Of a stretch of 34,774 nucleotides of DNA, positions 21,194-27,765 are shown piece by piece; the first letter of the stretch is position 1; each line of letters begins with the position of its first letter. Source of the stretch: Bifidobacterium breve (GTDB taxonomy: Bacteria > Actinomycetota > Thermoleophilia > Miltoncostaeales > Miltoncostaeaceae). The DNA is taken from contig CAMAVU010000012.1 in the NCBI GenBank assembly GCA_945861935.1, positions 1-34,774 on the forward strand, read 5' to 3'. The translations under genes and the position numbers were made by a program. A model generated the notes under the pieces. It worked only from the letters and a program-made list of their open reading frames with translations. It was not told the origin of the DNA and did no database searches.

Positions 21194-22855
21194 GTGCACG
21201 CAGGGAGCCCCATCACACCGCTGTCGCTCGCCCTCTCGCGCGAGGCGTCCGTCGTCGCCGGCGGGGCTGATGTCATCGCGGTGCTCGAACCGCCCGCGGA
21301 CACCGGATTCGGCGATCTCGCCACCAACGTCGCGATGATCCTTGCCGGGTCATCCCGCCGCAACCCCCGCGAGCTCGCCGACGAACTGGTGCAGCGCATC
21401 GGGGCGGCCGGGGGTCTCGGCGGGTACGTCGAGTCCGCGGTGGTGGCCGGCCCGGGCTTCATCAACCTCACCCTGAGCCCGAGGTGGTTTGCGGACGCCG
21501 CCCGCACCATCGTCGTGGCGGGGGACGCCTACGGGCGCGGCCAGGCCGAGCCCCGCGAGCGGATCCTGATCGAGTTCGTCTCGGCCAACCCGACCGGGCC
21601 GCCGCATGTGGGGCACGCACGGCAGGCGGCCTACGGCGACGGTGTCGCGCGCCTCCTCGAGTACGCCGGGCACGACGTCACCCGGGAGTTCTACGTGAAC
21701 GACTGGGGCCGTCAGATGGATCTGTTCGGGGCGTCGGTCGCGGCCCGGTACGGGCAGTTGATGGGCCTCGCCACCGAGGTCCCCGCGGATGGCTACCAGG
21801 GCGACTACGTGGTCGGCGTTGCCGAACGCATACGGGATGAGGTGGGTGATGCATTCCGCGACCGGGTGGACCCGCCCGACGCGGAGGCGCGTGCGCTGTT
21901 CACGGCGCTCGGCCGGGACATGATGCTGGCCACCATGACGGATGAACTGGAGCGGTTCCGTGTCCGGTTCGATGCCTTCGCCAGCGAGACCACCTTTCAC
22001 GCGGGGGGTGCGGTGACCCGCGGCCTCGAGGCTCTTGTCCGGTCGGGCGATGCCTACGAGCAGGATGGTGCGTTGTGGTTCCGTACTACGGCGTACGGCG
22101 ACGAGAAGGACCGTGTACTCCGGCGTTCCGATGGCTCCACGACGTACCTTGCCGCCGACGTGGCGTACCACTTGGACAAGGCCGGTCGCGGTGGTGATCG
22201 CCTGCTCGACATCCTGGGCGCGGACCACCATGGCTACATCGCGCGCCTGCGCGCGGTGGTCGCCGCCGGTGGGCACGACCCCGGGATGCTCGAGGTGCCC
22301 ATCGTGCAACTGGTCTCGTTGATCGAGGGGGGCGAGGCGCGGCGCATGAGCAAGCGGGCCGGCACCCTGGTGACCCTCGGCGAGTTGGTGGACGACATCG
22401 GGGTGGACGCGGCCCGGTTCTTCCTGGTGCAGCGCAGCCATGAAACGGCATTCGACCTTGATCTCGACGTCGCGCGGGCACAGGGCAATGAGAACCCCGT
22501 GTACTACGTCCAGTACGCCCACGCGCGCATCGCGGGAATCCTGATGCAGGAGCCCGCCGCGCCGGCCGCCGCGCCGCCGCCCGCCGCCATCGACCCCTCG
22601 GAGAGGGCCCTGCTGATTTCCCTTGCGCGCTGGCCGCAGGTCGTGGACGAAGCCGCGCGCCGTAGGTCACCGCACCGCGTGGCGGCATTTCTCATGGACC
22701 TCGCCCGCGACTTCCACGCGTTCTACCATCGCTGCCGGGTGGTGGGGGAGGCCCCCGAGGTCGTCGCGTTCCGCCTCGACGTGTTGCGCGCCACCCGGTC
22801 GGTCATCGCCACGGGTCTGGGCTTGGTCGGCGTGGAGGCCCCCGACCGAATGTAG
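21194..22855 (+). CDS. argS: Arginyl-tRNA synthetase
   Basis: Charges tRNA-Arg. This 553-residue class I enzyme has the N-terminal Add-1 domain (~1-95; DTGFGDLATNVAM), the catalytic core with SANPTGPPHVGHARQA (HxGH motif), REFYVNDWGRQMD, DGSTTYLAADVAYHLDKA, LGADHHGYIARL, the MSKR loop (RRMSKRAGTLVTL), and the DALR-type anticodon-binding domain with NPVYYVQYAHARI. The GTG start is chosen from the family N-terminus and the leaderless promoter; no Shine-Dalgarno is present. Confidence 0.97.
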   Translation: MHAGSPITPLSLALSREASVVAGGADVIAVLEPPADTGFGDLATNVAMILAGSSRRNPRELADELVQRIGAAGGLGGYVESAVVAGPGFINLTLSPRWFADAARTIVVAGDAYGRGQAEPRERILIEFVSANPTGPPHVGHARQAAYGDGVARLLEYAGHDVTREFYVNDWGRQMDLFGASVAARYGQLMGLATEVPADGYQGDYVVGVAERIRDEVGDAFRDRVDPPDAEARALFTALGRDMMLATMTDELERFRVRFDAFASETTFHAGGAVTRGLEALVRSGDAYEQDGALWFRTTAYGDEKDRVLRRSDGSTTYLAADVAYHLDKAGRGGDRLLDILGADHHGYIARLRAVVAAGGHDPGMLEVPIVQLVSLIEGGEARRMSKRAGTLVTLGELVDDIGVDAARFFLVQRSHETAFDLDLDVARAQGNENPVYYVQYAHARIAGILMQEPAAPAAAPPPAAIDPSERALLISLARWPQVVDEAARRRSPHRVAAFLMDLARDFHAFYHRCRVVGEAPEVVAFRLDVLRATRSVIATGLGLVGVEAPDRM

Positions 22856-23140: not shown

Positions 23141-24622
23141 TCAGGGCGTCCTTTGGAACGGCGCGCAGAAGATGTTGCTGCAGTGGGCGACCTTCAGGCT
23201 GGTAGCGGCGTCGGAGTAGTAGGAGATAAGCCCCTTCCCATCGGTTCCGATCGTGATGGTCGGGAGCCGCCCCAGATTCGAACCGGAGTCGACGGTTGCC
23301 GCAGTCCCGATCGAGCAGGCGATGTTCTGGCAGCGGATCACCTTCAGAGCGCCCCCCCCGGGGGCGACGTAGTACGCGATGAGGGCACGCCCGTCGGGGC
23401 CGATGGCAATGCTGGAATAGCCGCTGCCCACCCCGATGGCCTGAAGGGTGGTGATGCCCGCCGCGGTGCATGCGGTGTTGGTGCAGTGGGCCACCTTGAG
23501 CTCGGAAGTGGTCGTGTCCACGAAGGAGATGAGAGCGAGCCCGTCAGCGCCGATGGTGATCCCGGTGTAGCCGCCCGTGGCGAGGGCGGTGACGCCCGCC
23601 GCGGTGCATGCGGTGTTGGTGCAGTGGGCCACCTTCATCTGCAACCCCGGCGTCTGCTGGTAGGAGATGATCCCCAGACCGTCGTCGCCGATGGCGAGGG
23701 AGATGGACGATGTGCCGGTGCCGGATGTGTTGGACAGCCCGGCCGTGGTGGACGCCGAGCATGCGGTGTTGGTGCAGTGGGCCACCTTGAGGTGTCCAGT
23801 CGGCCCATCGGCGTAGACGATAAGGCCGAACCCATCGGATCCGATCGCGATCGAGGTGTGGGCGCCGGTCAAACCGGCGGTGGCGTCCACGGTGGTGACG
23901 TCCGCCGCCGAGCATGCGGTGTTGGTGCAATGAGCCACCTTGACGGCGCCGGCTGTGGTGTTGGTGTATGAGATGAGGCCGAACCCGTCCGTGCCGATAG
24001 CGATGGACACGTACCTGCCGACATCGTTGGAGGAGTCCAAGGTGGTGACGCCCGCTGCGGTACACCCGATGTTGGAGCAGTGGGCCACCTTGAGGTCCTG
24101 ATTCGTCGAGTCGTAATACGCGATGAGCCCAAGGCCGTCGTCACCAATGGCCAGGCTCGAGTACAGGCCGATGTCATCAGAGCTGGCCCCGTCCAGCGTG
24201 GTACGGGAGAACACGGGTGCTCCGGGGGATCCGGTCGCCCCCTGCAACCCCGTCGCCCCCGTCGGGCCCTGCGGTCCCGTCGGGCCCTGCGGTCCCGTCG
24301 GGCCATCCTGACCAAGGGGCCCGACGATCCCCTGCATCCCGGTCGAACCCGCTGCCCCCGTTGCCCCGGTCGCCCCGTCCGGCCCCGTGGGCCCGGTCGC
24401 ACCGGTGGCCCCCCGTCCGCCGGTGAGCACCCCGGGGGCGATGTCGGCGCCCGAGAGCGACCCCGCTTTCACCTTCACGCCGGTAACCGCACCCTTCTTC
24501 AGTTGGGCGGTCCCCACCGAGTTCCTGGGCAGCCTGACCGCGGCGTAGCCAGCGCCCGCGATCGCGATGCACATGGCGATGATGCCGATGACCAACGCGG
24601 GCGAGGGAGTCCGGAGGCGCAT
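23141..24622 (-). CDS. Collagen-stalk seven-repeat surface protein A
   Basis: This is a 493-residue exported protein. Residues 8-28 are a hydrophobic signal or anchor helix, followed by [19 protein letters not shown], a sequence shared by its two upstream paralogs. Residues ~68-135 are collagen-like Gly-X-Y triplets ([20 protein letters not shown] repeats). Residues ~140-493 are seven repeats of 46-51 residues of the form SIAIGxDGxGLISY followed by LKVAHCxNxxC. Cys pairs lie at 182/187, 232/237, 283/288, 334/339, 380/385, 431/436 and 481/486. The repeats resemble the ISYYD-type beta-propeller repeats, so a seven-bladed propeller held off the membrane by a triple-helical stalk is inferred. GAGGGGG precedes the ATG but sits in a hairpin. 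Ligand or function unknown. Confidence 0.88.
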
Positions 24623-24630
24623 GGGGTGGT

Positions 24631-24654
24631 CCCCCTCAGACCCGTCTGAGGGGG
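24631..24654 (-). promoter_or_regulatory. Hairpin that hides the ribosome site of protein A
   Basis: In the mRNA, CCCCCTCAGAC pairs perfectly with GTCTGAGGGGG across 2 nt (11-bp stem). The 3' arm contains the only Shine-Dalgarno for the ATG at 24622 and ends 8 nt before it. It could lower translation of the third gene, stop transcripts leaving the second gene, or both. Confidence 0.6.
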
Positions 24655-24691
24655 AGGGGCGTGAACGTGGCGGGTATCCCGGCAGGGATGA

Positions 24692-26209
24692 TCATCCGAA
24701 TCTCTGGAACGGGCGGCAGGTGAGGCTTCCGCAGTGGAGGACATGGAGGTCCTTAGCCACCGAAATATCGGAATGGGTGATGAGCGCGAGTCCGTCCGCA
24801 CCGATGGCGATGGCGGGGTAGTGGCCGATCATCTCGCCCCCCGATGACGTGCGGACGGTGCTCACGGTGCTCGTCGAGCAGGCGGCGTTCCCGCAGTGGG
24901 CGACCTTGAGGGTGGTGGCGCTGGCATTCGGATACGCGATGATGGGCAGCCCGTCCGCCCCGATCGCGATCGCGGGGCGCAAGCCGTCTGTGCCCCCGGT
25001 GTCAACGTCCGCAATTTCGATAGTGCCCGTGCAGTCGATCGTCGTGCAGTGGGCAACACGCGGTCGTGTTCCCGTGATGTCGGAGTAGGCGATGATGGGG
25101 AACCCGTCGGCACCGAGCACGGCGTGGGGGTAGCGGCCGCCGCTCGCAACGATCTCGGCGTGCGCCGCGGTTGTACAGGCCACATCGGTGCAATGGCTCG
25201 CCCAGATCTTGCTGGCCGCGTTGTAGTGGCCGTGGACCGCCAACCCCAAACCGTCCGTGCCGATGAGCAGGCTTACGTCGCCCCCGGCGGCGACGCCCAC
25301 ATCGAAAATTGTAGAGCCGCTCGACGTGCAGGCCACGTTGGTGCAGTGCATGACGCCGAGATCCGCAACGAGTTCGTCCCGGAACGCGACGAGGGGGAAT
25401 CCGTCGGAGCCGATCGCGATCGCGCTGGACGTCCCGCGGTACGCCCCGCCAGTCATCTCTGCGGCAGAGAAGGTCGTGCACTCCGTGTTCGTGCAGTGGA
25501 CCACCCGGACCGTGTGGGTGCCCGCGCCGGTCTGTCCGGTGAAGTGCGAGATGACTCCGAACCCATCTGTACCGATCACGAGGCGAACGTTGTAATCGTA
25601 GTTGTCCCCGACCGTGCCCACGGTGGTGGTGGTCCTGCCGCCAGCCGAGCAGGTCACGTCCGCGCAGTGGACCACGACGACCTTATTGGTGCCCGACGTT
25701 GACCGGTACGCGATGAGGGGCAAGCCGTCGGTGCCGATGGCGATCGCCGGGATCATCGCAGTGTTGATCGCGTCGCTGTCCAAGACCGCCCGTGTGAAAC
25801 CCGGTGTGTTGGCCGGGCCGCCCGCGGGACCCAGCAGGCCTGCCGCCCCCGCGCTTCCCGTCGCACCGGAGGCTCCCGTGAGACCCACCGCACCGGAGGC
25901 TCCCGTGAGACCCACCGCACCCGTGGCACCGGTGGGTCCCACCGCACCCGTGGCACCCATGGCACCCGTGGCACCCACCGCACCCGTGGCACCGACGCCT
26001 GGGGTGCCCGAGAGCACCCCAGGGGCAAAGTGCCCTGCATTGAGGGTTCCCGCCCTGATCTTCCCGCCGGTGACGGAGTTGTTCTTCAACTGAGCGGTGC
26101 CCACCGAGTTCATGGGCAGCCGGACCGCGGCGTAGCCACCCCCCGCGATCGCCACCATCAGGGCGATCAGGCACACCACGAGCGCGGGGGAAGGGGTGCG
26201 GATGCGCAT
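24692..26209 (-). CDS. Collagen-stalk seven-repeat surface protein B
   Basis: This 505-residue paralog of its neighbours has the same plan: hydrophobic segment (~8-28), [19 protein letters not shown], collagen-like triplets at ~69-131 ([29 protein letters not shown]), then seven repeats with HC-X4-C in each (HCADVTC, HCTNTEC, HCTNVAC, HCTDVAC, HCTTIDC, HCGNAAC, HCGSLTC). The C-terminus CRPFQRFG matches CAPFQRTP of protein A and CIPYQRTG of protein C. ATG at 26209 is preferred over an in-frame GTG three codons earlier because GAGGGG lies at the right distance. It is the middle gene of the three and the most diverged in its repeats. Function unknown. Confidence 0.88.
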
Positions 26210-26236
26210 GGGCCGCACCCCTCAGTCCTCTCTCGG

Positions 26237-26258
26237 CGCGACGTGTGCGCACGTCGCG
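26237..26258 (-). repeat. Hairpin between proteins C and B
   Basis: CGCGACGTG, loop TGCG, CACGTCGCG: a perfect 9-bp stem in the 68-bp gap, 19 nt after the stop of gene C. It lies clear of the ribosome site of gene B, so partial termination or mRNA processing and stability are likelier roles than blocking translation. Confidence 0.6.
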
Positions 26259-26277
26259 GATATGCAGACGGGAGCGG

Positions 26278-27765
26278 TCACCCGGTCCTCTGGTACGGGA
26301 TGCACGCGAGGCTGCTGCAGTGGGCCACCTTCAGGTTGCCGTTCGTGGCGTCGGAGTACGCGATGATCGCCCGCCCGTCCACCCCGATGGCGAGGGACGG
26401 GTCCCCCCCGACGTTTCCGGGCGAATCCAGCATGGCCAGAGTGGCCGCCGAACATGCCGTATTGGTGCAGTGGGCTGCCTTGAGGTCGCCGGAGTTTTCA
26501 TCCGGGTAGGCGATGAGCCCATGGCCGTCCCGGCCGATGACGATGGAGATTCCCGACAAGCCGACAGATCCGGTCGCCAAGGTGACGGGGGCGCTAGAGG
26601 TCGTGCAGGCGGTGTTGGTGCAGTGGGCCGCCTTGAGGCTTGCGGACGAGAGGACGTTGTAGGCGATGAGCGCGTAGCCATCGGCCCCGATGGCTACGGA
26701 TGATGCGAGGCCCACGGTGCCAGTCGTGTCCACCACCGTCCTGTCCCAGGTCGAGGTGCAGTCGGCGTTCGTGCAGTGGACCACTCTGAGAGCACCGTTC
26801 GTGTTGTCGTAGTGTGAGATGAGCCCGAATCCGTCCGCGCCGATTGCGATGGCGGGATATAAGCCCACCTCTTGGGTGGCGTCGGCGGTGCCCGTTGTGG
26901 CCGTGGTACACGCCGTTTGGTTGCAATGGGCGACCTTGAGGTCCCAACTGGGGGTACCTGCGGTGTATGCGATGAGCCCGAGCCCGTCGGCGCCGATAGC
27001 GATGGCAGGGTTTTCGCCGACAGCGCCGGTCGCGTCCAGAGTGACGGGGGTGCCAAATGTCGTGCAGGCGGTGTTGGTGCAGTGGACCATCTTGAGATTC
27101 GTGTTCGTGGTGTCGTAGTAGGCGACGAGCGCGTAGCCATCGGCCCCGATGGCGATTGAGGGGGACTGGCCGACAAGACCGTCCGAATCAAGCGTGGTGG
27201 AGGTGGCCTGCGTACAGGCGGCGTTGTCGCAGTGGGCCACCTTGAGGCTCGTATTCGTGGTGTCGTAGTAGGCGATGAGCGGGTTCCCGTCCGCCCCGAT
27301 CGCGATGGAGGTAAAGCTGCCGACGTCCGTCGCGGGGTTGCCGGCCCCGTCCACGACTGAGATGGCGAAGCCATGCTGTCCCACCGTCCCGACGGGTCCT
27401 TGAGCACCCTGAGCACCCTGAGCACCCAGAGCACCCTGAGCACCTTGAGCACCCTGAGCACCCTGAGCACCCTGAGCACCCTGAGCACCCTGTGGTCCGT
27501 CCCCCCCGGCGGCCCCCGGCGGACCCTGAGGTCCCTGCGCGCCCATCGGTCCGGCTCCTCCGTCCGCATTGGACAGCGCTCCGGTGGCGAAGTGGCGCGC
27601 CCGGATGGCTCCGTCCTTCACCTTCTTGCCGGTGACCGCACCCTTCTTGATCTGCGCGGTCCCCACCGAGCTCCTCGGCAGTCGCACCGCTGCGTAACCG
27701 ACCCCTCCGACCGTGATGCACAGAGCGATGAGTCCGATGGCCAAGGCTGGAGGAGTTGAGCGCAT
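26278..27765 (-). CDS. Collagen-stalk seven-repeat surface protein C
   Basis: This 495-residue protein is first of the three tandem paralogs. Hydrophobic segment (~5-25), RLPRSSVGTAQIKKGAVTG, collagen-like stalk at ~69-130 dominated by ten consecutive GAQ/GAL triplets, then seven repeats each with HC-X4-C (HCDNAAC, HCTNTAC, HCNQTAC, HCTNADC, HCTNTAC, HCTNTAC, HCSSLAC). Repeats carry the IAIGADGxxLIAYYDTTN pattern typical of ISYYD beta-propellers. The ATG at 27765 has GAGGA directly abutting it, too close for a normal ribosome site, so its initiation is unclear. With B and A (gaps of 68 and 69 bp) it probably forms one operon for stalked surface proteins. Confidence 0.87.
   Translation of the reverse strand: MRSTPPALAIGLIALCITVGGVGYAAVRLPRSSVGTAQIKKGAVTGKKVKDGAIRARHFATGALSNADGGAGPMGAQGPQGPPGAAGGDGPQGAQGAQGAQGAQGAQGAQGALGAQGAQGAQGPVGTVGQHGFAISVVDGAGNPATDVGSFTSIAIGADGNPLIAYYDTTNTSLKVAHCDNAACTQATSTTLDSDGLVGQSPSIAIGADGYALVAYYDTTNTNLKMVHCTNTACTTFGTPVTLDATGAVGENPAIAIGADGLGLIAYTAGTPSWDLKVAHCNQTACTTATTGTADATQEVGLYPAIAIGADGFGLISHYDNTNGALRVVHCTNADCTSTWDRTVVDTTGTVGLASSVAIGADGYALIAYNVLSSASLKAAHCTNTACTTSSAPVTLATGSVGLSGISIVIGRDGHGLIAYPDENSGDLKAAHCTNTACSAATLAMLDSPGNVGGDPSLAIGVDGRAIIAYSDATNGNLKVAHCSSLACIPYQRTG
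27401..27490 (-). repeat. Ten tandem 9-bp units in the stalk of protein C
   Basis: The plus strand reads ten 9-bp units of TGAGCACCC, eight of them identical; one starts with A and one ends with T. On the coding strand each unit encodes one Gly-Ala-Gln (one Gly-Ala-Leu) triplet. Gain or loss of units keeps the frame and changes stalk length. Confidence 0.95.

Follow-up and report, generated by a model that had tools for sequence, protein, structure and literature searches.

Three tandem genes, T1, T2, and T3, lie in the window, the whole stretch of 34,774 nucleotides that was analyzed. Their products are most likely bacterial collagen-stalked surface binding proteins of a widespread, so far unnamed family, with a cysteine-paired head that is predicted to be seven-bladed from the modelled T1 head and its alignment with the other two.

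Gene Organization and Domain Layout

The genome containing these genes has 1.6 Mb in 78 contigs. A preliminary description of the window had reported three tandem genes, each encoding a collagen-like stalk and exactly seven repeats, and our analysis bears this out with exact coordinates. The features are listed below by their position in the window.

26278..27765, minus strand: T1, complete ORF of 495 aa, collagen-like stalk and seven-repeat head
24692..26218, minus strand: T2, complete ORF of 508 aa, GTG start
23141..24622, minus strand: T3, complete ORF of 493 aa
27688..27765, minus strand: T1 hydrophobic N-terminus (aa 1-26), read directly from the sequence
27562..27687, minus strand: T1 linker (aa 27-68, VRLPRSSVGTAQIKKGAVTG...), scaffold module common to the genus
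27364..27561, minus strand: T1 collagen-like stalk (aa 69-134), 22 Gly-X-Y triplets, from sequence and Pfam Collagen
25814..25993, minus strand: T2 collagen-like stalk (aa 76-135), 20 Gly-X-Y triplets, from sequence and Pfam Collagen
24215..24421, minus strand: T3 collagen-like stalk (aa 68-136), 23 Gly-X-Y triplets, from sequence and Pfam Collagen
26281..27378, minus strand: T1 head (aa 130-495), seven HC-X4-C, from the AlphaFold2 model and fold matches
24695..25807, minus strand: T2 head (aa 138-508), seven HC-X4-C, from alignment with the modelled T1 head
23144..24223, minus strand: T3 head (aa 134-493), six HC-X4-C and one RC-X4-C, from alignment with the modelled T1 head

The genes follow each other head to tail on the minus strand with gaps of only 59 nt (T1-T2) and 69 nt (T2-T3), so they probably form one co-transcribed operon. 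A search for sigma-70 promoters and terminators near them gave no matches. As a check of the phylum, WhiB was looked for in 13 genomes of the class and was absent; the class's scaffold sequences may resemble those of Thermoleophilia. The third-position GC of their codons (0.79-0.86) matches the expectation for real genes of the host genome. Alignment with T3 suggests that the ATG at 26209, three codons in, is probably the likelier start of T2. One flank is occupied by a convergent arginyl-tRNA synthetase gene (21194-22855); on the other lies a tRNA-Gly of the plus strand and, after it, a glucosaminidase-domain gene of the minus strand.

All three proteins start with a hydrophobic N-terminus and a linker; the N-terminus of T1 is likely an export signal or a membrane anchor. 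All three stalks are uninterrupted Gly-X-Y runs which pass the Pfam Collagen cut-off. The similarity of their lengths, earlier given as about 62-68 residues, holds, and the measured range is 60-69. Because the stalks are short and that of T2 is proline-poor, the stability of a triple helix is uncertain. The linker before the collagen run (27562-27687) consists of near-repeats of about 10 residues, NGSLTGKDLR-like, which are far longer in some relatives (L036, L039, L043), and it may be a separate trimeric stalk element.

The Head Is a Predicted Seven-Bladed Propeller

Each head contains seven repeats of about 50 residues. Its fold was modelled for T1 with AlphaFold2 from an alignment of 46 heads, those of the window and relatives from genome contigs. 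The resulting monomer model has a mean pLDDT of 95.2, a pTM of 0.93, and 28 strands, that is seven blades of four; the same prediction run without the alignment had low confidence. Repeat 7 stops seven residues past its second Cys, and in the model its missing fourth strand is replaced by the first strand of the head, FAISVVDG, which lies before repeat 1. Completion of the last blade by an N-terminal strand is the usual way in which propeller rings are closed. The best solved matches were seven-bladed PLL-type lectins both in Foldseek (E 9.7e-16, TM 0.73) and in VIA-align (Z 33.9, 318 residues, 2.4 A). The model and these matches strongly support the propeller suggested earlier from the repeat count: a closed ring of seven blades with one Cys pair in each.

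If the ring is closed, how constant is the number of blades among relatives? A repeat profile was used to count the blades of 48 full-length ORFs. Seven were found in 26 ORFs, T1-T3 among them, and 14 in 12 others, while the remaining ORFs had 5 (six ORFs), 4 (two), 6 (one), or 12 (one). Several of the low-count ORFs are frame-broken or partial. Thus the repeat numbers expected of a closed ring do dominate, as 7 and 14, beside a few 5-blade ORFs, of which L087 and the second L081 gene seem intact, and perhaps L089 as well. The collapse of near-identical repeats in short-read assembly is a possible source of these exceptions. In a second, wider set, almost every intact ORF has seven blades, including relatives that lack the Cys pair. 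Seven blades are the rule, with exceptions.

All 12 of the 14-blade ORFs come from Nitrospira, and each would amount to a pair of consecutive seven-bladed propellers. The Nitrospira loci L048-L067 look secreted and carry 14 blades without a collagen stalk.

A Cysteine Pair in Every Blade

A C-X4-C motif is present in all 21 repeats of the three proteins (7 + 7 + 7), and in 20 of them the first Cys directly follows a His, exactly as first reported; the one exception is RCQNIAC in T3. The only cysteine outside these pairs, one per protein, lies in the hydrophobic N-terminal segment. When the head residues were shuffled 20,000 times, C-X4-C occurred on average 0.47-0.50 times per protein and at most 5 times, so seven per protein are beyond chance.

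The pairs are also well kept in the alignment of 46 heads: both Cys are intact in 318 of 322 blades, a single one remains in 2 blades, and none in another 2, all of these losses being confined to blade 7. Proteins of the wider relative set have the pair in seven blades, in six, or in none, so that, blade 7 aside, a protein has either all of its pairs or none. The same genome has a VKOR gene directly adjoining a gene for a DsbA-like thioredoxin-fold protein, and such a pair is a known route of disulfide formation outside the cytoplasm. As cysteines are kept or lost in pairs and these genes are present, each blade likely has a disulfide that spans its turn.

Comparison with Known Families and Structures

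Pfam has no family that covers the head repeats. The sole match above cut-off in the T1-T3 heads is a 13-residue stretch of DUF1936 at the Cys motif of T3; the other Pfam matches across the 46 heads are scattered and inconsistent. DUF1936 (PF09151) matches 12-14 residues around C-X4-C in 21 of the 46 heads, and its model may mislabel heads of this type in annotation. The identities PyrI_C and DUF1936 were both dropped, being judged chance matches to C-X4-C. Against PDB sequences, phmmer with T1 and a search with the head profile returned only collagens and chance matches.

The PLL/PHL lectins of Photorhabdus, as well as BP39L and CV39L, share with the T1-T3 heads the architecture of seven four-stranded blades. 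However, identity is only 14-18% and there is no sequence-profile match, so the likeness is that of a shared fold and does not show family membership. PLL-type lectins bind fucose, galactose, or O-methylated sugars. Their sugar sites lie between blades and use conserved Trp residues (PMC5584973, PMC6943638). This motif is absent from the heads of T1, T2, and T3, which have 2, 1, and 0 Trp, respectively. The lectins, in turn, lack both the collagen stalk and the C-X4-C of each blade. Integrin-type and VCBS propellers also have seven blades, and integrin alpha heads gave VIA Z values of 27-29, but identity is about 10% and the T1-T3 repeat has no DxDxDG calcium loops.

With regard to the whole layout, Legionella Lcl is likewise a bacterial surface protein in which a collagen-like region is followed by a C-terminal binding head (PMC11162425), although that head is a different, trimeric, glycosaminoglycan-binding domain. 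The NCBIfam Lcl model covers only the collagen part of T1-T3, with 34.7 bits against a cut-off of 500; over the Lcl, SclA, and SclB models the best scores were 35-37 bits against cut-offs of 325-500, again on the collagen stretch only. BclA-type and Scl-type proteins also join a collagen-like stalk to a non-collagen domain (PMC8968730), whereas T1-T3 have neither a BclA/C1q-like head nor an LPXTG anchor. A collagen-like stalk combined with a propeller was not found in the literature searched, a scope outside which most subscription papers fall.

Divergence of the Paralogs

The three genes had been taken for an expanding family of binding heads. They are not a fresh expansion, as the T2 and T3 heads are only 37-48% identical to that of T1, with no position-wise correspondence of blades. 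In likely orthologs of SAR202 or of Nitrospira, a blade clearly resembles its counterpart at the same position more than it does blades at other positions (0.64 v 0.44, 0.71 v 0.47, and 0.78 v 0.48). For the T1-T3 pairs the respective values are 0.36 v 0.39, 0.57 v 0.56, and 0.37 v 0.37. With longer blades they are 0.37 v 0.37 and 0.45 v 0.46, and 0.40 v 0.35 for T2-T3. Since there is little or no blade-position correspondence between the paralogs, their sequences indicate either that the blades were still alike at the time of the gene split or that each gene amplified its own blades later.

This pattern agrees with published evidence for a continual emergence of propellers by amplification of single blades (PMC9218822); in the propellers of that survey, too, blades are alike within a protein and show no blade-to-blade match between paralogs. 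The survey mentions neither disulfides or cysteines nor collagen fusion, in contrast to the C-X4-C of each blade and the collagen stalk in T1-T3. Divergence among T1-T3 is uneven within the blade: identity is 0% in the B-C loop, 8% in the D-A loop, 29% in the C-D turn, and 79% in the A-B turn.

Scaffold and Head as Separate Modules

Of the 20 species of the genus, 16 carry the N-terminal scaffold (T1 aa 1-64). The ORFs that contain it are mostly about 230-350 aa long and combine a short collagen run with a different small head. Two such paralogs are present elsewhere in the T1-T3 genome. The small C-terminal heads of these paralogs (L013, 1105-1863; L014, 1492-2232) look C1q/TNF-like, and Pfam has no match to them.

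The propeller head has another distribution. At E <= 1e-20 no other genome of the genus (20 species) has it, five of them giving only weak, remote matches. With the same threshold 8 of the 299 class genomes contain the head; with E <= 1e-30, 11 of 396 genomes of the phylum do. The idea of binding heads set on one scaffold is therefore supported in a wider form, since the scaffold is genus-wide and mostly carries other small heads; fresh expansion, as seen above, is not part of it. Elsewhere in the T1-T3 genome, a 1169-codon open frame gives a weak match to the propeller profile (L132, G000:C4:26665-27117; E 1.8e-7).

Outside the genus, many SAR202 and other Chloroflexota have the same propeller joined to collagen. 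The SAR202 proteins have lipobox-like N-termini, for example AVSACGSQG and VVSCSGS. Two further loci (L060, L068) belong to a MAG labelled Euryarchaeota (EA_22); either archaea use such proteins as well, or these loci were binned wrongly. In the same phylum as the window, genome G409 has two tandem collagen-propeller genes with another N-terminal domain; their collagen run is short and, in the one gene scanned, under the Pfam cut-off. At G606:C1:1228977-1236681, five tandem genes (L148, L157, L161, L163, L164) encode an N-terminal CWB2 domain, which binds cell walls, followed by the same seven-bladed head, CWB2 being scored in L148 and recognized by eye in the other four. This set is a second, independent tandem expansion of heads on another scaffold. 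Both the lipobox-like N-termini and the CWB2 are signs of surface display in relatives.

The head tree is poorly resolved at depth. For the collagen label parsimony counts 6 changes, of which the starred branches force only 1, and the tree may thus be compatible with a single origin of the collagen-head fusion. A viral origin was rejected: there was one weak IMG/VR locus, which had no collagen link.

Proposed Function and Alternatives

On balance we lean toward T1-T3 being exported, surface-displayed, disulfide-stapled and probably trimeric propeller binding heads. The hydrophobic N-terminus would direct export and perhaps anchor the protein. The linker and the stalk would hold the C-terminal propeller off the cell. 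With the usual rise of the collagen triple helix, about 0.29 nm per residue, the stalk of 60-69 residues would measure about 17-20 nm if fully triple-helical. The stalk would run directly into the ring-closing strand, and in each blade a C-X4-C disulfide would bridge the turn that joins strands three and four, a staple suited to a protein exposed outside the cell. The collagen stalk suggests a trimer, which would put three propellers (21 blades) at one tip. Such a tip, which would be the trimeric lollipop adhesin or receptor first suggested, could bind a repetitive ligand with avidity; the likeliest ligand would be a glycan or another polymer found on surfaces.

Propellers of standard topology have the start of their closing N-terminal strand on the A-B/C-D side. 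For this reason the stalk should attach on that side, leaving the variable B-C/D-A side outward. As an argument for binding, the variable face is weak, because loops outvary turns in most proteins and the C-D turn varies here too. Taken together, the variable loops, a fold like that of lectins, and the surface modules seen in relatives make a repeated surface ligand our best guess, and a fairly probable one; that it is a glycan, the most likely class, is quite possible, although the missing Trp motif of the PLL lectins counts against it.

Several other functions may be considered. BclA-type proteins build the nap layer on spores, and T1-T3 could similarly be a structural coat in which stalks and heads form a nap or matrix layer, the propellers packing against their neighbours and binding no foreign ligand. 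The three co-oriented copies and the arrangement of a collagen-like stalk with a C-terminal globular head, which is that of BclA (PMC8968730), would fit such a layer. Heads this divergent, most of all in their loops, are unlike a repeated lattice protein, however, and an element found in 1 of 20 species of the genus does not belong to the basic structure of its cells, so that we regard a coat as unlikely.

Less probable still is a head in which the His-Cys-X4-Cys of each blade binds zinc or another metal, at structural sites or for metal capture. The nearly constant His and weak Pfam matches to PyrI_C, a C-X4-C metal-binding domain, speak for it. But in relatives Arg, Ala, Lys, or Glu often stands before the first Cys, which shows that the His is dispensable and makes a metal site less likely; moreover, C-X4-C offers two ligands only, one or both Cys of blade 7 can be lost, and the genome encodes the VKOR-DsbA pair. 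We give the least credit to an enzymatic role, in which a stalk would carry a glycosidase or polysaccharide lyase of propeller fold. Propeller glycoside hydrolases, sialidases, and the PL25 ulvan lyase do appear in the Foldseek and VIA lists, but they rank below the lectins. The invariant columns of the 46 heads are all positions of the repeat consensus (G, D, Y, L, H, C), and none of them is special to one blade. The lack of such a symmetry-breaking residue disfavours a single catalytic centre and is what one would expect of a binding ring, as in the surface-displayed binding head that we prefer.

Significance

A wider reading can be put forward tentatively. The stapled seven-bladed propellers may be a family of exchangeable binding heads, which lineages of two or more bacterial phyla, and possibly archaea, would have put on collagen stalks separately; the products would be trimeric lollipops of 21 stapled blades. 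In the species studied here such a propeller would have replaced the usual small head of a genus-wide collagen scaffold. The heads commonly reported for bacterial collagen-like proteins are of other kinds, and the papers searched contain no tandem set of stalked proteins with a large propeller head in which every blade has a Cys pair. These heads offer a clean test case for the amplification of propellers from single blades and for their transfer between scaffolds, and the stapled ring is a possible display scaffold. If the trimer and the binding are true, T1-T3 would represent a new kind of multivalent surface receptor, common to uncultured freshwater, marine, and soil lineages.
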